Virus record (IMG/VR): IMGVR_UViG_3300044825_000274
Span: 1-39,863 of that record
Direction: 5' to 3' (one strand)
DNA length: 39,863 nucleotides
From: a virus
Shown: positions 2,873 to 12,968 of the stretch, piece by piece
How positions within the stretch are numbered: position 1 is the stretch's first letter
Layout of the letters: every line of letters starts with the position of its first letter
Position numbers and translations under genes: made by a program
Notes under the pieces: generated by a model
The model's database searches: none
Seen by the model: only the letters and a program-made list of their open reading frames with translations
What the model was told of the DNA's origin: nothing

Positions 2873-3226
2873 ATGTCTAAAAAAGTAACACTTCCATCTG
2901 GCGTAACCGTAACTCTAAAAGACCCAAGCAAAATCCGCTACGGTGATCGCAAGCGTCTTTACAAGAGCATTGACATTGAAGGATCAGATTTGACCCGCGC
3001 AATGGCTATGAATGATGCGCTTATTGCAATGTTGATTGAAGAATGGTCACTACAAATTCCAGTGCCAGCAGTAAAGGCTGATTCTATTGATGAATTAGAA
3101 ATTACTGATTATGACGCGCTAGTAGAACACACAAAGGATGCACAAAAGGCTCTGTTCCCTAATCTCGCAGATACACCGGAGAACGAACAAGACCCAAAAG
3201 CGCCTTCCGAGAACTCCAACGCCTAA
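2873..3226 (+). CDS. Tail assembly chaperone, short form (gpG-like)
   Basis: A 117-residue protein with a beta-strand opening (VTLPSGVTVTLKDPSKIRYGDR) and a helical middle (LTRAMAMNDALIAMLIEEWSL). Such chaperones coat the tape measure protein during tail assembly and leave before maturation. Position between major tail protein and tape measure is diagnostic. The gene contains a canonical -1 slippery site near its end, at 3193-3199, so a minority of ribosomes should make a longer form. The ribosome binding site is ACGGAGG. Confidence 0.85.
   Translation: MSKKVTLPSGVTVTLKDPSKIRYGDRKRLYKSIDIEGSDLTRAMAMNDALIAMLIEEWSLQIPVPAVKADSIDELEITDYDALVEHTKDAQKALFPNLADTPENEQDPKAPSENSNA
3193..3199 (+). promoter_or_regulatory. 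-1 programmed frameshift site C-CCA-AAA
   Basis: In the zero frame the bases read C CCA AAA (Pro-Lys), a canonical X-XXY-YYZ heptamer. After a -1 slip the new frame is open from 3199 through the next ORF to 3420. Downstream, AACGCCT at 3218-3224 can pair with AGGCGTT at 3257-3263, enclosing a smaller GGCG/CGCC hairpin. The spacing of 18 bases is longer than the usual 5-9, so the structure's role is uncertain. Confidence 0.85.
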
Positions 3227-3822: not shown

Positions 3823-6800
3823 ATGGCAGACATTCCCCCAATTTTGGTACAGATCCAAGCCGATGTTGCACAACTTAAAGCGGGTCTAACTCAGGCAGAG
3901 GCATCCCTAAAAAGTCTTGATGGAAATGTAAGCAAGACTGATCAAGGCTTTGGCAAGTTCACAGATAGGCTTAAATCCGTTGGAGCGGCCCTTGGAGCGA
4001 CTTTTGCGGTAGGTAGTGTCGTTTCATTCTTCAAGCAGTCTATTAGCGCCGCTATGGAGGCTTCAGCGGTCCAAACACGCCTTGCTGAGATCCTCCGTAA
4101 CACGGGTGGAGCAACAGAGGCACAGATTGTTGCTCTCAATGCACAGGCAGAGGCTCTTGCCAAAGTAGGTGTTGCATCTAAAGAAAACATCATGACTACG
4201 CAGAGTCAGTTGGCAACTTTTGATCTGCAAGCAAAAACAATCAACACATTAACACCAGCCATTTTGGATTATGTAGTTGCCGAAAAGGGTGCCACTGCAA
4301 GTTCTGAAGATTACAAGCAGATGACTAACGGCCTAGCCCAAGCATTGAACGGTAACTTTGGGGCTTTAACACGCGTTGGTTTCGTACTTGATGAAGATAC
4401 AAAGAAAAAAATTGCTAACGGAACTGAATCTGAGCGCGCCGCCGCTATTACAGAAGTTCTTAATTCAACTTACAAAGATTTTAATAAGACCGTAGCGGAT
4501 ACTCCTGAAGGCCGCATGATCAAACTCAAGCAAGAGTTTGGGGATTTACAACAAGAAGTAGGTGAAGCACTCCTGCCAGCCATGGAAGGATTTGCCAAAG
4601 TCCTCAGCAATGTTGTTATTCCTGCTATCCGTAAATTGATGGACTTCATTAAGAACAACTCTACTGAAATTAAAGCCTTTGCAATCGCTTTGGGTATTGG
4701 TGCAACAGCATGGGGTGTTTATACCCTTGCAGTAAAGCGCGCAGAAATAGCACAGAAATTATTAAATCTTGCGCAAAAGGCTAACCCAATCGGCATTGTC
4801 ATCACTGCGGTGGCATTGCTTGTGGCAGGCATTGTTAAATTGTGGAGATCTAGCGAAACATTCCGCAATGTTGTAATCAATGTTGCCAAAGTTGCGCTTA
4901 ACGCATTTGCCAGCATCATCCCTATGGTTGCCAAAGTCTTTGAAGCAATAGCAAAAATTGTTACTGGTCCAATGCGTTTATTCTTGGGCGCTCTTTCCAA
5001 GTTGCCGGGTGTTGGTAAATACGCCAAATCTGGATTAGACATGATCAATAAGGGCCTAGATGGAATCTCCGACATGGGAGATAAGGCCGCAAAGAAGGCT
5101 AAAGAACTGTCTGGCAAGTTAGATGAACTTGCAAAGAAAGGTAAAAAAGCCGCTGAGGAAACCGAAAAGGCTGGCAAAAAGGCTAAGGATGTTTGGGCAG
5201 GCTCCAAAGATCCTGCTGGTGGTGGCGGAAAAGATGATGAAAAGCGCCTAGAAAAAATCAAATCTTTGAAAGAAAAGGCTACTGCCCTTCTTGATGACAT
5301 GGCACAAGCGCGAGCCGATGCCTTGGAAAGATTAGAAGAAGCGGAAATTGCCCGTGATGAAAAAGTTGCAGAGGCTAAGGAACGCTACGCAGAACGCGTA
5401 GTAGAACTTAATGAGCAATACCAAGAGCGGGTTGCGGAAGCCAATGAGCGTTATGGTGAGCAAATTGCTAATGCAGAAAAGCGCCGCAATGATGCCCGCA
5501 TAGAAGCCCAAGAGCGGGCGGCAGAAAGAATTGCTGATCTCAATGAGCGTTATCAAGAACGCGTGGCTGATGCTAATGAGAGATATAACGATGTCCTCAA
5601 AGAAGCGGCAGAACGCCGGGATGAGGCTATTGAGGAAGCAACTAAACGCGCTCAAGAAAAGATTGCCGACCTTAGAGAAAAATATGCAGAGAAGGTTGCT
5701 GAGGCTGAAAAGCGTTATGCTGAAAAATCTATTGAAGCCGCTGAACGCCGGGATCAAACAATTCTTGAGGCTACCGAAAAATTCAAAAAGCGTGAGTTGG
5801 AGATTGAAAAGGCTTACAACGCAAAGCGCACAGAACTGACTAAAAACTTTGAGGCAAAGATCCTTGAATTACAAACAGAAGCACAGCGCAAGCGTGAGGA
5901 AATAACCCAAAAGGGTCAAGAGCGTCTTGCTGAAATTGTTGAACAAAGCCGCGAGCGCCTGCGTGAAGCATGGCGCAGTGGAACTGCTTTCAGTCTTTCA
6001 GATCTCTTTGGTGAGAATGTAAAAACTGCGGGCGCTAGTGAGTTAATTAGTAATCTTTCTAATCAACTAGAGATGACCAAAGTTCTTTTGCAAAAAGCAG
6101 GAGAACTCTCTGCCGCTGGATACACACAAACATTTATTGAACAAATTGTTGCCGCTGGTCCTGATGCGGGAACTGAAATGGCTAACGCTCTACTTGAACT
6201 TGATGATGCTACGCAAGCACAAATTCAAGAAATGTATATGAGCCTTGAAACTCTAAATAAAGATGGAGTTAATGATTTAGCCAATACTATGAGCAATTCA
6301 ACCAGTTTTGCTACTGCTGAATTGGCTGAAATGTATAACGCAACCAAATTGGAAATTAAGGCCGCCCTTGAAGCGGTTGATACAGAACTCAAGGCATCCG
6401 TAGCCGAATCTAAGGCTGTGTACGAAGCCGCTCTTGCTGAGGCCGCAACAGCCCGTGATGAAGCATTGACAGAAGCAAAAGTGGCTCTTGATGCCGCATT
6501 AGCAGAAGCAAAAAAGACTTATGACGATGCCATAGCGGATGCAAAGAAAACTTTGAATGATGCACTTTTGGCGGCAAAGAAAGATCTTGAAGAAGGTATT
6601 ACTGCGGCGCAAAAAGCATTACAAGATGCTATTGCTAAAGCCAATGAGGAATACACAAAACAAATTACTAAGGCCAAAGAAGCCTTGGATAAGGCTTTGC
6701 TTGATGCAAAGAAAGAGTTGGATAAGAACATTGAGGAAACTCAAAAGGCTCTTACTAAGGCTCTTGAGGACATTGATAAGGCTTACAACGAAGCCCTAGA

Positions 6801-7320
6801 GGAAGCCAAAAAAGACCTAGATAAAGCACTAGCGGATGCAAAGAAGTCTTTGGATAAAGGGCTTGAGGATGCGCAAAAGGCTTTGAACAAGGCTATTGAA
6901 GATGCCATGAAAGCCTTTGAGAAAAACATTGATGACATCAATACAAGCCTTGATAAAAAATTAGCCACACTGAAAAGCAAAATTGCAGAAGTGGCAAAAG
7001 ATTTAGCAGAACTTAACGCTAAACAAGAGGCGGCGGCTTTGTTGGCGGCAAGCACAGCGGTATCAGGAAAAGGCGATGTTTTGGGTGGATCAAAAACCGA
7101 TAGCGCCAGCGTTGCCTCTATACGCGCAAAAGAAGAAGCAGATGCAAAATCGCTCACTGTCAATCAAACTTTTAACTCTATGCGCGTAGATTCTTATGAT
7201 GTTCACCAAGCCACACTCAATGCTATTCGCTACGGTCAGGCTGTAATTCCTGATCCTGTCACATCAACAGTAGGAACTGGCGGAGCCGGTGGCGGTCAAT
7301 ACGGGATAAAGGTGAAATAA
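3823..7320 (+). CDS. Tail tape measure protein with two 11-residue-repeat coiled regions
   Basis: A 1165-residue protein that should set tail length and line the tube lumen. The N-terminal part is helical; two hydrophobic segments at about residues 286-303 and 321-341 fit membrane insertion during DNA entry. A Gly-rich hinge near residue 468 precedes two long helices made of 11-residue repeats, residues 509-717 (Arg/Glu-rich) and 843-1062 (Lys/Ala/Asp-rich). They are separated by a non-repetitive domain at about 718-842. The C-terminus is Gly-rich. It is the longest gene in the window, and its position after the chaperones is diagnostic. It shows no peptidase or lysozyme motif that I could see. 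Confidence 0.93.
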   Translation: MADIPPILVQIQADVAQLKAGLTQAEASLKSLDGNVSKTDQGFGKFTDRLKSVGAALGATFAVGSVVSFFKQSISAAMEASAVQTRLAEILRNTGGATEAQIVALNAQAEALAKVGVASKENIMTTQSQLATFDLQAKTINTLTPAILDYVVAEKGATASSEDYKQMTNGLAQALNGNFGALTRVGFVLDEDTKKKIANGTESERAAAITEVLNSTYKDFNKTVADTPEGRMIKLKQEFGDLQQEVGEALLPAMEGFAKVLSNVVIPAIRKLMDFIKNNSTEIKAFAIALGIGATAWGVYTLAVKRAEIAQKLLNLAQKANPIGIVITAVALLVAGIVKLWRSSETFRNVVINVAKVALNAFASIIPMVAKVFEAIAKIVTGPMRLFLGALSKLPGVGKYAKSGLDMINKGLDGISDMGDKAAKKAKELSGKLDELAKKGKKAAEETEKAGKKAKDVWAGSKDPAGGGGKDDEKRLEKIKSLKEKATALLDDMAQARADALERLEEAEIARDEKVAEAKERYAERVVELNEQYQERVAEANERYGEQIANAEKRRNDARIEAQERAAERIADLNERYQERVADANERYNDVLKEAAERRDEAIEEATKRAQEKIADLREKYAEKVAEAEKRYAEKSIEAAERRDQTILEATEKFKKRELEIEKAYNAKRTELTKNFEAKILELQTEAQRKREEITQKGQERLAEIVEQSRERLREAWRSGTAFSLSDLFGENVKTAGASELISNLSNQLEMTKVLLQKAGELSAAGYTQTFIEQIVAAGPDAGTEMANALLELDDATQAQIQEMYMSLETLNKDGVNDLANTMSNSTSFATAELAEMYNATKLEIKAALEAVDTELKASVAESKAVYEAALAEAATARDEALTEAKVALDAALAEAKKTYDDAIADAKKTLNDALLAAKKDLEEGITAAQKALQDAIAKANEEYTKQITKAKEALDKALLDAKKELDKNIEETQKALTKALEDIDKAYNEALEEAKKDLDKALADAKKSLDKGLEDAQKALNKAIEDAMKAFEKNIDDINTSLDKKLATLKSKIAEVAKDLAELNAKQEAAALLAASTAVSGKGDVLGGSKTDSASVASIRAKEEADAKSLTVNQTFNSMRVDSYDVHQATLNAIRYGQAVIPDPVTSTVGTGGAGGGQYGIKVK
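5347..5973 (+). repeat. Hendecad repeat block A in tape measure (19 x 33 bp)
   Basis: Residues 509-717 divide without gaps into nineteen 11-residue units with the pattern (E/K)RY.ER(V/I)A.A(N/E), for example ERYAERVVELN, EQYQERVAEAN, ERYQERVADAN and EKYAEKVAEAE. Eleven residues make about three helical turns, so a continuous right-handed or near-straight coiled coil is expected. Units are diverged at DNA level, so the periodicity is held by selection rather than by recent duplication. Confidence 0.9.
6349..7008 (+). repeat. Hendecad repeat block B in tape measure (20 x 33 bp)
   Basis: Residues 843-1062 divide into about twenty 11-residue units of the form K(A/D/E)LDKALEDAK, for example KDLDKALADAK, KALNKAIEDAM and KAYNEALEEAK. 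Composition is Lys/Ala/Asp/Leu, different from the Arg/Glu/Tyr type of block A, so the blocks expanded separately or have drifted to different partners. The register is almost perfect, with the last two or three units degenerating. Confidence 0.9.
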
Positions 7321-7321
7321 A

Positions 7322-8185
7322 ATGCCAGCAGTAATTACTAATTATTCTTTCTCCTTTAATAATCAAGTATTTGGCGGTGCTGGTTCGCCTTATCAAATTC
7401 TTTCTGTTGAGGGCCTAGAAAGTTTGCCGGGCATCCGTAACCAAGATGATAACCGTGGTTATGCAGATGGTATGTTCACGGGCCGCGACTTTTTAGCAGG
7501 CCGCAGTATTACTATCACTATTCAGACTACGGCTACTCCAACGGCATCTGCTCAGGCTAATTTCAACACGCTCCAACGCACCCTTCAACCTCAGACCGCA
7601 GGCACAACACCTTTGTATTTCCTGCTCTCAGCAGGAGAGTCAGAGCAAGTAATCAATGCCCGCGTAAGATCTCATGTGGCAACCATCAACCCTAATTACA
7701 CCTACGGTTACATCATTTCGCAGGTTGATTTCTTCTGCCCGGATCCCCGCTACTACGATTCCAATGACCAAACCGCTACCCTGCTTTACTCAACCCCATC
7801 AGGGCGTATCTATAACCGTACCTATAATCTAGTTTATGGTGGTGGTTCAGGAACTATTACAACAACAATTTCTAACAATGGTTGGACCGCCACCTACCCA
7901 ACTATCACTATAAATGGCCCTATTACCAACCCCGAAATAGGAAACCTAACTCAGAACGCATCTATGCAGTTCAATGTCACCCTGTCATCTTCAGATTTAT
8001 TCGTTGTGGATCTATACAATAAATTGATTACACTTAACGGAAACCCTGCCCGTAATACATTGATCTCCGGTACTTCTACTTGGTTTTCAGCACAACCGGG
8101 CAACAACAGTTTCTACTTCACGGGAACTGGAACCTTAGCAGGAACTACTCAGGCTGTCGTAGAATGGCAGTCTGCCTACATATAG
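7322..8185 (+). CDS. Distal tail protein (Dit-like)
   Basis: A 287-residue protein placed directly after the tape measure, where Dit proteins form the hub ring at the tail tip. The N-terminal domain has the expected pattern: a start strand, SVEGLESLPGIRNQD, DGMFTGRDFLAGRSITITI, then a stretch ending YYFCP-like as VDFFCPDPRYY at about residues 138-148. The C-terminal half is a beta-sandwich with TITINGPITNPEI and FVVDLYNKLITLNG, typical of the galectin-like Dit C-domain. Confidence 0.8.
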   Translation: MPAVITNYSFSFNNQVFGGAGSPYQILSVEGLESLPGIRNQDDNRGYADGMFTGRDFLAGRSITITIQTTATPTASAQANFNTLQRTLQPQTAGTTPLYFLLSAGESEQVINARVRSHVATINPNYTYGYIISQVDFFCPDPRYYDSNDQTATLLYSTPSGRIYNRTYNLVYGGGSGTITTTISNNGWTATYPTITINGPITNPEIGNLTQNASMQFNVTLSSSDLFVVDLYNKLITLNGNPARNTLISGTSTWFSAQPGNNSFYFTGTGTLAGTTQAVVEWQSAYI

Positions 8186-8990: not shown

Positions 8991-9323
8991 ATGCCAACAG
9001 CATACAAAGTCCTAGGGCAAGCGGCCCCGGCAAATACATCAGAAGCAACTCTTTACACAGTGCCTTCAGCCACTCAAGCGGTTGTTTCCACACTTGTAAT
9101 TTCAAATCTAACTAGCACTGCCGCTAATGCAACAGTGAATATCTGCGTTAATGGCGCGGCATCTTCCAATGCAAATACAATTCTCAAAACAGTTTCTATC
9201 GCGGCTTCTTCAACTGCTACATTCACACTTGGTATTACCATGGGTGCGGCTGATTTAATTCGTATTACATCAGGAACATCTAACGCTCTTGCGTTTAGTG
9301 CCTTCGGGAGCGAAATCTCCTAA
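8991..9323 (+). CDS. Small beta-rich tail-associated protein
   Basis: A 110-residue protein starting MPTAYKVLGQAAPA. An upstream in-frame ATG at 8928 lies within the previous gene, so 8991, preceded by GGGAG, is preferred. The sequence is a single beta domain rich in Ala/Thr/Ser (YTVPSATQAVVSTLVISNLT, TATFTLGITMGAADLI), similar in style to small fibre-tip or decoration proteins. It sits between the fibre-like protein and the glycine-rich array and probably belongs to the same tail-tip assembly. Its precise role is unknown. Confidence 0.6.
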   Translation: MPTAYKVLGQAAPANTSEATLYTVPSATQAVVSTLVISNLTSTAANATVNICVNGAASSNANTILKTVSIAASSTATFTLGITMGAADLIRITSGTSNALAFSAFGSEIS

Positions 9324-9324
9324 T

Positions 9325-10203
9325 ATGGGCCTTGATATATTTCCAACTACTTCGCCCGCAGGAAATGTTTTTCCCCCAAGTTCTTCTGCGGCGATTGGTA
9401 CTGGCGCGCCTTACGGATTAACGCTTCAGCAAACTCTTACTAGCAGTGGAGCAGTAACAATCCCTGCTGGTATAAATTGGATTTGGGCTGTTGTTGTTGG
9501 TGGCGGTGGCGGTGCTGGAACTTTGGGCGGCGGTGGTGGTGGCGGAGAAGTCATTATGGGTTGGGTTCGTGCGGCATCTTCAGTAACTATTGGATCCGGT
9601 GGTGCAGGAGCAAACACCTCAAGTTCTTCCGGTGGTTATGGCGGTACATCTATTTATGGCAGTCTAATTGCCGGTGGTGGAAATGGTGGCAACAGATTGT
9701 CACCACAATCACCGGGTGGTGGTGGTGGCGGCGGTAGGCAAGGTTCAGGCGGCGCAGGTTCAACATCATTTTATGGAGTTCCCGGAGGTTCAGGTGGAAC
9801 TTCTGAAGCATCAGGCTCAATTTCTGTTAATGGTGGAGGTGCTGGCGGCACAACACAAACATTTGCTAAGGCCGCAACAGGTGGCTTTGGTGTAGCGGGT
9901 GGCGGTGGCGGAGCAGGAATTAACGGAGCCGGTGGTGATGGAGGAAATGGTTTAACAGGCGGAGGCGCTGGTGCCGGAAGTAGCACAGGAAATGTTGGCG
10001 GATCAGGTTTCGGTGGTGCTGGCGGCAATAACGCTTCTGCATCAGGCGGAAACGGTGGCGGTGGATATTTAGGTGCCGGTAGTAATGGCGGTGGTTATTC
10101 CGGTGGCTCAGGCGGAAATGGCGGCGGTGGTGGCGGCGGTGCTTCTACTGATCCATACATGGGCGGCTCAGGTGGAAATGGTTGCGTTTTATTATGGTAT
10201 TAG
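9325..10203 (+). CDS. Glycine-rich tail adhesin paralogue 1
   Basis: A 292-residue protein, first of four tandem paralogues. It has a short N-terminal arm, then the shared segment PYGLTLQQTLTSSGAVTIPAG and a strand ending VVVGGGGG. Runs of Gly with Asn, Ser and Ala follow, ending GGNGCVLLWY. Long GGX tracts suggest polyglycine-II helices packed as a brush or sandwich, as in gp38-type adhesins of T-even phages (structural inference). The middle is the variable part and probably faces the host. An in-frame upstream ATG at 9289 overlaps the previous gene; 9325 follows its stop by one base and is preferred. Confidence 0.8.
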   Translation: MGLDIFPTTSPAGNVFPPSSSAAIGTGAPYGLTLQQTLTSSGAVTIPAGINWIWAVVVGGGGGAGTLGGGGGGGEVIMGWVRAASSVTIGSGGAGANTSSSSGGYGGTSIYGSLIAGGGNGGNRLSPQSPGGGGGGGRQGSGGAGSTSFYGVPGGSGGTSEASGSISVNGGGAGGTTQTFAKAATGGFGVAGGGGGAGINGAGGDGGNGLTGGGAGAGSSTGNVGGSGFGGAGGNNASASGGNGGGGYLGAGSNGGGYSGGSGGNGGGGGGGASTDPYMGGSGGNGCVLLWY

Positions 10204-10211
10204 GAGCATAA

Positions 10212-11171
10212 ATGGTTACAGGTATTTTTCCTCCTGCTAGTGGAGGCATTGGCACAAACGCACCATACGGTTTGACCCTACAACAAACTTTAACTTCATC
10301 AGGATCAGTAACGATTCCTGCAAGTATTAAACAAGTTTATGCAATCGTTGTTGGCGGCGGTGGCGGTGGAGGCCGAGGTAATTCACCCGGAGGTGCTGGT
10401 GGTGGTGGCGGAGGTTTAACTGAAGGTTGGACACTGCCTGCAACAACAGTAACAATCGGTAGTGGTGGCGCGGCAGGAACTAGCGGCGCGGCAGGTCAAG
10501 CAGGTGGATTAAGTATTTTTGGATCTTTAGTTGCCGGTGGCGGCGGTGGTGGATCTAATGGTTCTCTTTACAATGGTTCCGCTGGTTCATTAGGTGGCGG
10601 TGGCGGTGGTCACAGTCCGGGAAATGCTGGATTCAGTGCTGGCGCAAGTTTTTTTGGCGCTCCTGCAAGTTCTTATGGTGCTGATAGCGGAACCGTACTT
10701 TCTGGCATGGGTGTAGGTGGCAGAGGTGGCGGTAACACAGGTGGATTAACAGGCTCACAAGGTTCACCCGGTCTATCTGCTGGTGGAGGACAGGGCGGAA
10801 GTCAAGGAACAACAGGAAATGTTGGTAACAGCGGTGGTGCTGGCGGCAATGGAACTATTGGTGGCGGTGGAGCAGGTGGCGGTAATGGTAATGCGCAAGA
10901 TTCCGGTGGTGGTGGCGGTGGCGGTAGAGGTTTATTAGGAAACGGTAGCGCGGCATCAACTCCCGTTGGCGGCACAGGACAAGGCACACCCGGTGCAGGT
11001 GGAACCGTTGCTGGTGGTGGTGGTGGCACAGGTGGTGGAAGTACGGCTACTGGTAATTCAACTGGATCTATTGGTGGTGCTGGTGGTTCTGGCGGCGGTG
11101 GCGGCGGTGGTGGCGGTGGTGGTGCCAATGGTGGCGCTGGCGGTACCGGTTGCGTATTGATTTATTACTAA
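10212..11171 (+). CDS. Glycine-rich tail adhesin paralogue 2
   Basis: A 319-residue paralogue with the shared PYGLTLQQTLTSSGSVTIPA block, a strand YAIVVGGGGGGG, a conserved WTLPATTVTIGSGG segment, SIFGSLVAGGGGGG, and the C-terminal GGTGCVLIYY. It is the longest of the four, with the most extensive Gly tracts. The start is set by TAGGAGCATAAATGG, the same stop-ribosome-site-start junction as before the 8194 gene. The Pro-rich frames on the opposite strand are mirror images of the GGN codons and not genes. Confidence 0.8.
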   Translation: MVTGIFPPASGGIGTNAPYGLTLQQTLTSSGSVTIPASIKQVYAIVVGGGGGGGRGNSPGGAGGGGGGLTEGWTLPATTVTIGSGGAAGTSGAAGQAGGLSIFGSLVAGGGGGGSNGSLYNGSAGSLGGGGGGHSPGNAGFSAGASFFGAPASSYGADSGTVLSGMGVGGRGGGNTGGLTGSQGSPGLSAGGGQGGSQGTTGNVGNSGGAGGNGTIGGGGAGGGNGNAQDSGGGGGGGRGLLGNGSAASTPVGGTGQGTPGAGGTVAGGGGGTGGGSTATGNSTGSIGGAGGSGGGGGGGGGGGANGGAGGTGCVLIYY

Positions 11172-11180
11172 GGAGAACTA

Positions 11181-12035
11181 ATGGCTACGAATATATTTCC
11201 TGTTGGTGGTGGCACTGTAAGCACTACGGGTACGCCTTTTGGTTTAACTTTGCAACAAACAATCACTTCTACTGGCAATGTCACGATTCCAGCAGGCATT
11301 AATTTTGTTTATGCGATTGTTGTTGGTGGTGGCGGTTATGGTGCTTATGGTGGCGGCGGTGGTGGCGGTGTCACTATGGGTTGGACCCGCGCTGATAGTT
11401 ATGCGCTAATTGGTGCAGGTGGTACGGGTAGTTCCAATGTTGGCGGTATGTCACGCTTTGGTTCTTTAGTAGCAGGAGGTGGAGGCAGTTCCTCTACTAC
11501 TGCGGCATATAACACGGGTTATGTTGGCGGCGGTGGTGGCGGTTCTGCTCAAAATGCGAACGCAACTAACGGTGGACCCGGAGGAGCAAGTTATTGGGGT
11601 CCAGCAGTAGGCGGTGCGGCTGGTGCTACAAGTAATGGATCTGATGGATTTGATGGCACAGGCGGCGGTGGAGGTTCAGGAAGAACTGGTGCTAATGGCG
11701 GCAGTGGTGGAAATAGTTATGGCGGCGGTGGCGGAGGCGGCGGTTGGGCGCAAGGTTATCCGGGTGGCAACGGCGGCAGAGGTTTAACTGGTGGCGGTGC
11801 TGGTTCTAGCACTTCTCAGGGTGGTAATGGTGGCGCTAGTGCTAATTTTTCTGGCGGTAGTGGTGCAGGTGGAACAAATGTTGGCGGCGGTGGAGGCGCA
11901 GGTTGGTTAGCCGCTGGTGGTAATGCTTCAGGCGCAACTGCTGGCGCTGGTGGTTCTGGTGGTGGTGGTGGCGGTGGTGGCGGTAACGGCGCAGGTGGAA
12001 ATGGCGGCGGCGGTTGTGTATTACTTTATTACTAA
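11181..12035 (+). CDS. Glycine-rich tail adhesin paralogue 3
   Basis: A 284-residue paralogue: PFGLTLQQTITSTGNVTIPAG, then YAIVVGGGGYGAYGGG, the MGWTRADSYALIGAGG segment, SRFGSLVAGGGGS, and C-terminal GGGGCVLLYY. It contains more aromatic and Asn residues in the glycine tracts (NSYGGGGG, GWAQGYPGG) than its neighbours. AAGGAG lies just before the ATG. Conserved ends with a divergent middle fit diversification of a receptor-binding surface. Confidence 0.8.
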   Translation: MATNIFPVGGGTVSTTGTPFGLTLQQTITSTGNVTIPAGINFVYAIVVGGGGYGAYGGGGGGGVTMGWTRADSYALIGAGGTGSSNVGGMSRFGSLVAGGGGSSSTTAAYNTGYVGGGGGGSAQNANATNGGPGGASYWGPAVGGAAGATSNGSDGFDGTGGGGGSGRTGANGGSGGNSYGGGGGGGGWAQGYPGGNGGRGLTGGGAGSSTSQGGNGGASANFSGGSGAGGTNVGGGGGAGWLAAGGNASGATAGAGGSGGGGGGGGGNGAGGNGGGGCVLLYY

Positions 12036-12044
12036 GGAGATCTG

Positions 12045-12968
12045 ATGGCTACTAAACTTTTTCCAGCACCTCAAGCGCAACCTGCTTCAACTGCAACTCC
12101 TTATGGTTTGACCCTGCAACAAACTTTGACTTCATCTGGAACGGTGACAATCCCTGCCGGTATTAACTGGGTTTATGCGGTTGTTGTTGGCGGAGGTGGC
12201 GGAGGTGGCGGTACCGTAACTGGTTCAGGTAATTACGGCGGTGGTGGTGGCGGTGGTGGCGCTGTCACTATGGGATGGTCACCTGCTATAACAAGAGTAA
12301 CTGTTGGATCCGGTGGTAGCGGAGGTTCCACAAGCGGAAGCGCTGGCAGTAATGGCGGCGCATCTATTTATGGCTTTATTGTTGCTGGCGGCGGTGGCGG
12401 CGGTGGCGGTGCAGGTGGTACTGCAACTGGATCAGCAGGAACAGTTGGAAGCGGCGGTGGCGGCGCGGGTTCACCAAACGCTGTTAATAGTGGCGGTAAC
12501 GGTGGATTTAGTTTTTATGGTTTTGCAGGTGGAACTTCCGCAAGCACTGGTGGAAGTGGTAGTACGCCAACAACAGGTAGTTATGCTGTTGGTGCGGCTG
12601 GTGGTGGCGCAAACTATCCCGGTGGATCTGGTACATCTGGTGGAGGGGCTGGCGCAACAGGTTCTATACGCGGTGGAGATGGATTAGTTGGTGGCGGTAA
12701 TGGTGGCGGTAGTTTGAACGGCACTACTGCCCGTGGTGGTAATGGTATTTTTGCTGGCGGAACTGCTCTTGGAAACTATGCTGGCGGTGGCGGTGGTGGT
12801 GGATACTTAGGTGTTGGTGCTAACAGCACACAATACAATGGTGGCAATGGTGGGAATGGCGGCGGCGGTGGTGGCGGCGCTAGTAATACCAATGCAAGCG
12901 GAACTACTGCTGTTTCCAGTGGAACCGGTGGAAACGGCGGCACTGGTTGTGTTTTACTTTATTACTAA
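12045..12968 (+). CDS. Glycine-rich tail adhesin paralogue 4
   Basis: A 307-residue paralogue closing the array: PYGLTLQQTLTSSGTVTIPAG, YAVVVGGGGGGGG, MGWSPAITRVTVGSGGSGG, SIYGFIVAGGGGGG and C-terminal GGTGCVLLYY. All four copies keep one Cys four residues from the C-terminus followed by a hydrophobic-aromatic tail, which could anchor the subunit to the fibre or drive oligomerisation. The ribosome binding site is AAGGAGATCTG before the ATG. Confidence 0.8.
   Translation: MATKLFPAPQAQPASTATPYGLTLQQTLTSSGTVTIPAGINWVYAVVVGGGGGGGGTVTGSGNYGGGGGGGGAVTMGWSPAITRVTVGSGGSGGSTSGSAGSNGGASIYGFIVAGGGGGGGGAGGTATGSAGTVGSGGGGAGSPNAVNSGGNGGFSFYGFAGGTSASTGGSGSTPTTGSYAVGAAGGGANYPGGSGTSGGGAGATGSIRGGDGLVGGGNGGGSLNGTTARGGNGIFAGGTALGNYAGGGGGGGYLGVGANSTQYNGGNGGNGGGGGGGASNTNASGTTAVSSGTGGNGGTGCVLLYY

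Follow-up and report, generated by a model that had tools for sequence, protein, structure and literature searches.

The usual picture of a tape measure protein (TMP) is that of a single extended strand or bundle, with a length that is simply the length of the tail. The window analysed here, a stretch of 39,863 nucleotides forming the virus record IMGVR_UViG_3300044825_000274, codes for a TMP with two distinct blocks of 11-residue repeats, and the question raised by this locus is how the two blocks relate to each other and to that picture. The features discussed in the text are collected in Table 1.

Table 1. Features of the TMP gene and of its neighbours, with positions in the window
Feature	Position	Strand	Basis
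TMP, 1165 aa	3823..7320	+	PHROG TMP families, gene order, IMG/VR relatives
TMP N-terminal half, residues 1-504, conserved TMP domain	3823..5334	+	tblastn, alignment with relatives
Arm 1, residues 505-712, ~19 hendecads, one continuous helix (predicted)	5335..5958	+	lag-11, helix prediction, pairing register
Hinge domain, residues 713-830 (~115 residues), helical	5959..6312	+	alignment, IMG/VR relatives
Arm 2, residues 831-1038, ~19 hendecads	6313..6936	+	lag-11, helix prediction, length lock, covariation
Base of arm 2 and C-terminal tail of the TMP	6937..7320	+	AlphaFold2 secondary structure, alignment
Probable tail assembly chaperone	2873..3226	+	sequence, position directly upstream of TMP module
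Distal tail protein (Dit), next gene	7322..8185	+	Pfam SPP1_Dit 2.9e-11, PHROG Dit

The tape measure gene and its hendecad blocks

The reading frame is matched by PHROG TMP families (best 1e-14) and is flanked by a tail-tube/chaperone/neck cluster on one side and by the Dit gene on the other, and both the sequence match and this gene order assign it to the TMPs. Its N-terminal half, which contains two hydrophobic stretches (~284-303 and ~323-343), matched in tblastn the TMPs of Microbacterium, Bacteroides, Staphylococcus and other phages, and a C-terminal motif is conserved in the alignment with the relatives. Two further viral proteins (L006 and L007; a third, L008, is truncated) share the N-terminal half at 40% identity in a short TMP (783 aa) that lacks the hendecad arms and has at best a weak match to the hinge.

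The probable chaperone gene had no family match in Pfam or PHROG. A slippery heptamer, CCCAAAA, lies in frame near its 3' end (3193-3199) and is followed by an open -1 frame to ~3410; it is likely to be a programmed frameshift site, as in lambda G/GT. Downstream of the tail genes, positions 9289-12968 hold several consecutive glycine-rich genes with many short TGG/GGC repeats, and the one that was tested matched a glycine-rich tail domain.

Lag autocorrelation of the TMP, scored with BLOSUM62 against shuffles, gave a lag-11 z of 12.5 for block 1 (residues 509-717) and of 12.8 for block 2 (residues 843-1062), whereas the N-terminal 508 residues peaked at lag 7 and the linker 718-842 had no peak. 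This agrees with an earlier note on this DNA, which had described two blocks of 11-residue repeats with almost no register slips; indeed, no frame slip was found inside either block. The note had counted 19 and 20 units. The first count stands at ~19, but the 20 is an edge effect, both arms having ~19 units by the family anchors and the pairing register, and block 2 extends ~two units beyond the base of the hairpin described below. The consensus is A-x-E/K-R-Y-x-E-K/R-I/V-A-E in arm 1 and K-K-A-L-D-K-A-L-A-D-A in arm 2. Block 1 also has a 44-residue super-repeat, with a z at lag 44 (13.3) above that at lag 11.

The repeat exists at the protein level only, Tandem Repeats Finder having detected no DNA array in the TMP repeat region. 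Moreover, the synonymous codons of residues matched at lag 11 in block 1 agree in 28 of 66 cases, against 29.7 expected. The absence of a DNA-level array and the chance-level codon agreement indicate that the units are old and have been kept by selection on the protein. The same two results rule out chance or a recent DNA-repeat origin of the blocks.

Belcaid, Bergeron and Poisson reported in 2011 (PMC3271669) that TMPs contain 11-residue units in variable number, with W or F as the marker, and the TMP of TP901-1 has 29 units of 11 or 18 residues, one of which can be replaced by alanines (PMC5099701). Among ten TMPs that we fetched from isolated phages, five have stretches with a lag-11 z >5. 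Hendecads alone are therefore ordinary, and the view of the earlier note that typical tape measures are heptad-based or irregular is not supported. The window protein shares with the TMPs of Clostridium botulinum prophages, Staphylococcus phages and TP901-1 exact tandem helical units of 11 residues whose number varies among relatives. However, those TMPs have a single region of repeats, marked by W/F and interpreted as a linear tape, whereas the window family has two number-locked blocks with Y/F and R markers, paired around a hinge. A W/F anchor at a fixed position in every unit, as in the 2011 description, was not found; the arm-1 layer 511+11k of the window is made of Y, R and A, with few F and no W.

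Equal arms and an antiparallel register

Relatives were gathered from IMG/VR in several successive scans, and four anchors outside the repeats were each placed independently by position-specific matrices. The nearest relatives (L002 and L005, 54-68% identity in the best segment) have shorter TMPs than that of the window; measured from one conserved anchor to the next, they lack 88 residues in block 1 and 88 residues in block 2, i.e. eight units each. Across the whole set, subtracting the block-1 anchor distance from that of block 2 gives exactly the same number of residues in 84 of 84 scorable distinct relatives (55 of 55 in an earlier, smaller set). The expectation of the earlier note that unit number varies by whole units among related phages was borne out: there are nine block-1 distance classes (105, 127, 138, 149, 160, 204, 215, 237, to which the window belongs, and 259), all multiples of 11 apart, and arm length spans 14 units. 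The stretch between the arms (90-119 residues) is free of the 11-residue rule. Two proteins with weaker anchors (L233, 182/172; L237, 204/194) and five read by hand (L115, L116, L120, L121 and L142) agree with the length lock, to which no exception was found among the 84 scorable relatives and these seven extra cases.

This agreement is not an artefact of the method, because a slipped anchor gives a mismatch and not a match. At least 15 changes of arm length are needed on a tree of flanks and linker. Comparison of the relatives shows that the arms are equal in unit number in every one of them and that units come and go in pairs. In this TMP family, which is common in viral contigs, the two arms have thus stayed equal to the residue while their length changed many times, so that a folded-back state is under strong selection.

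Three of the relatives (L076, L079 and L087) have a ~23-residue insertion near the start of the hinge, giving a linker of 119 instead of 96 residues, with the arm rule unchanged. In another record (L038, 888-3854), the TMP homologue lies in short frames, the longest open piece being 180 aa, owing to either a sequencing error or decay of the gene.

From gapless alignments per length class, we computed how the charges of the two arms covary on every diagonal of either direction, antiparallel or parallel. Among the antiparallel diagonals, the most strongly negative one, the ANTIPARALLEL register, is identical in class 149 (n=46) and class 127 (n=18), and it sets the hinge-proximal ends of both arms opposite each other. 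The combined z is -6.2 in this register, against -2.4 for the best parallel one; a parallel diagonal of z -3.87 in class 149 is absent from class 127. The minor classes with short or long arms, taken alone, gave no charge-covariance signal. In window numbering, arm-1 residue x lies opposite arm-2 residue 1543-x (x+y=1543), with residue 712 opposite 831. This register is lined by ladders of salt bridges. At the pair u=58 (E531-K1012 in the window), the charges are opposite in 77 of the 84 proteins and alike in none, the polarity being K-E in some clades and E-K in others; where two units of one protein differ in polarity, their partners follow (45 of 45 comparisons). Both equal unit numbers across the length classes (84/84) and unit-specific antiparallel residue covariation, the two properties by which we recognize a paired-unit hairpin, were thus found in this family.

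The E/K polarity swaps amount to only 2-3 on the tree, so that the sequence counts are not independent events, and we therefore gave more weight to the pairing of arginines with aromatic residues. In the window at register 1543, layer 507+11k places A/L/I against I/L/V/Y, with hydrophobic pairs at 19 of 19 positions, and layer 515+11k places V/I against A. Layer 511+11k places Y against L, and R against Y or F at 511-1032, 555-988, 599-944 and 643-900. Family-wide, an arm-1 Arg of this last layer lies opposite Y, F or W of arm 2 in 108 of 108 cases (30.6 expected), and moving arm 2 by one unit lowers the number to 3 and 0. The result is the same in 27 representatives below 70% identity (39/39 against 11.4 expected; 3 and 0 after one-unit shifts), in which aromatic-aromatic pairs are depleted (18 against 41 expected). 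The Arg-aromatic pairing is present in every length class, and a parallel order matches only 9 of the 108.

Judged from these alignments, the Arg-aromatic pairing sets both the direction and the register of the arms to the unit. Arm 2 thus holds a mirror image of the Y-Y-R-A rhythm that makes up the 44-residue super-repeat of arm 1, and the super-repeat is accounted for by Arg-aromatic locks at about every fourth unit, four units corresponding to ~6.6 nm. In the window alone, charge complementarity over all positions ranks the true register 19 of 121, which is unexceptional because of the 11-residue periodicity; the register is resolved only by layer-specific and family-wide tests. Taken together, these data show that a paired antiparallel state is under selection.

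Predicted hairpin, hinge and related architectures

The long helices anticipated by the earlier note are present in the AlphaFold2 prediction of the window protein, which has uninterrupted helices at 470-718 and 832-1069, the latter running on past the end of arm 2; this full-length model (pLDDT 46, four sequences) was used for secondary structure only. For the relative L052 (419 residues, with 27 relatives of one length class), the two long helices were modelled as a single-chain hairpin with a pLDDT of ~98 in the arms, <70 in the hinge and a pTM of 0.52. The fold was judged from its structural matches and not from the coordinates. The best matches among solved structures are single-chain antiparallel hairpins, such as the chemoreceptor hairpin 2ch7 (Z 14.9 over 301 residues) and 4ke2, a helical hairpin of 11-residue repeats (196 residues at 2.9 A, covering both arms at model positions 54-361); the arms of SMC and Rad50 are also matched. 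High Z values are common for long helices, and we used these matches only to call the L052 model a hairpin.

The hinge carries a conserved motif (GYTQTFIEQIVAAGPDAG-type; GYxQxFIExVVxxGPxxG in the alignment), and one scan of IMG/VR returned 474 hinge relatives. Searches of 50,697 phage records with hinge and arms found no cultured member of the family, and the hinge alone gave only chance-level matches in the phage collection. One good match, in an Actinomycetota metagenome-assembled genome (L139), hints at an actinobacterial host. Weaker hinge matches occur in actinobacterial genomes, in proteins of ~900-1950 residues with short flanking helices. In six such proteins (L264-L269), the weak match lies between short helices, and in one of them (L265) ~34 and ~33 proline-free residues stand on either side, possibly a minimal hairpin. 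A short helical hairpin of ancestral TMPs may have been drawn out by paired hendecads in the family of the window.

Maxi, the hyperactive antifreeze protein of winter flounder, is an Ala-rich four-helix dimer around ordered water. It shares with the proposed fold a single-chain helical hairpin of 11-residue repeats (4ke2), but it lacks a hinge domain and its function is unrelated to that of a TMP. SMC, Rad50 and MukB have the same layout of head, antiparallel arm, hinge and antiparallel arm; however, they are heptad-based and of unrelated function, and the window TMP has no ATPase head, the whole protein giving no match to an ABC ATPase head in Pfam at 0.01. The cytoplasmic hairpin of bacterial chemoreceptors (MCPs), the top structural match (2ch7), is likewise long and antiparallel, with length classes of 12-32 paired heptads that differ by paired units, one per arm (PMC6628036), and it provides a parallel in evolution. 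It belongs to a signalling protein and is built of heptads, not hendecads, and no sequence relation to the window TMP was detected, either for the whole TMP (Pfam at 0.01) or for the hinge (PDB sequences). No TMP hairpin was found in open-access full texts, which is not proof of absence, and a 2022 review (PMC9022992) listed TMP structure within assembled tails among the questions still open. The window protein belongs to a known kind but is built in a new way, the novelty lying in how the blocks relate and not in the hendecads.

The folded state and its possible place in the tail

We consider it very probable, from the length lock and the covariation, that the two blocks are the arms of one antiparallel helical hairpin within the TMP. 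Arms 1 and 2 would fold back on each other, capped by the conserved helical hinge domain of ~115 residues, and the register between them shows layers of hydrophobic residues, ladders of E/K salt bridges and, at about every fourth unit, an Arg-aromatic lock. With 11/3 residues per turn the rod would be nearly straight, each paired unit adding ~1.65 nm, and with the TMP in three copies, the number in other tails, it would contain six helices. The least certain step is that this rod acts in the tail lumen as a length-tunable ruler segment. The account as a whole, from the capped hairpin to the tunable ruler, seems to us probable. The earlier note described the repeats correctly but did not recognize the two blocks as partners. 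Its proposal that the two chemistries might match different chaperone or tube surfaces is not supported: the blocks match each other, with lengths locked one-to-one and antiparallel covariation. Its step of ~1.6 nm per unit would, if the hairpin is in the tail, require a pair of units, one per arm.

For the presence of the hairpin in the mature tail, the chances appear evenly balanced. A specific form of this idea, which we put forward tentatively and at somewhat less than even odds, is that the virion contains a folded ruler, in which three hairpins would make up a straight hendecad rod of six helices that matches the six-fold tube. Tail length would evolve by insertion of paired units, one per arm, and the Arg-aromatic locks would keep the register. 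Such a rod would be tight in a lumen of ~4 nm. Against a hairpin in the tail, the solved TMPs of diffocin and of mycobacteriophage Douge, which lie in the lumen as trimers, as the window protein would, are or appear to be extended parallel trimers. The diffocin TMP is an end-to-end extended parallel coiled-coil trimer (PMC10996793) and the Douge TMP is traced at its C-terminus only, as a trimer (PMC13033339); in the available passages of the two reports, paired repeat arms are mentioned for neither.

Should the chain in the tail be extended like that of diffocin, the hairpin has to belong to a stage before assembly or after ejection. One such reading, to which we give somewhat less than even odds, is that only the free or ejected protein folds as a hairpin and that the mature tail contains a stretched, extended helix like that of other TMPs. 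The arms would then pair either before assembly, in a compact, chaperone-bound form, or once the protein has been ejected, when the rod would span the cell envelope. The extended diffocin trimer has been proposed to refold after release (PMC10996793), and the length lock requires only that the paired state matters at some stage. On the other hand, this paired state would have to face selection strong enough to hold every arm equal, and direct evidence of two states did not emerge from our analysis.

Pairing in trans, in which arm 1 would meet arm 2 of a different TMP copy, would leave the same covariation as pairing in cis. However, the paired ends of the arms (712 opposite 831) are exactly where the hinge of 90-119 residues connects them, so a hairpin within the chain needs no extra assumption; antiparallel pairs in trans would set two polar molecules head to tail inside a polar tail, and the AlphaFold2 monomer forms a hairpin. 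We regard pairing in trans as very unlikely. At least as improbable is a linear ruler with two independent blocks in series, each unit of either adding 1.65 nm. TMP length does set tail length in lambda and TP901-1 (PMC3271669, PMC5099701) and hendecads are common in TMPs, but such a ruler gives no reason for equal unit numbers in 84 of 84 relatives or for unit-resolved antiparallel covariation. That the arms are equal only through common descent, or because a single duplication process copied the two arrays together, is scarcely credible even though the relatives share descent and 149 is the commonest class, given nine length classes with at least 15 changes on the tree, arms that are dissimilar at the DNA level and built of old units, and the fact that unequal crossover alters one array only.

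In this family the structure of the TMP in the assembled tail can be approached from two sides: a folded and an extended chain would give different tail lengths for the same unit counts, and the residues to be crosslinked can be predicted from the register.
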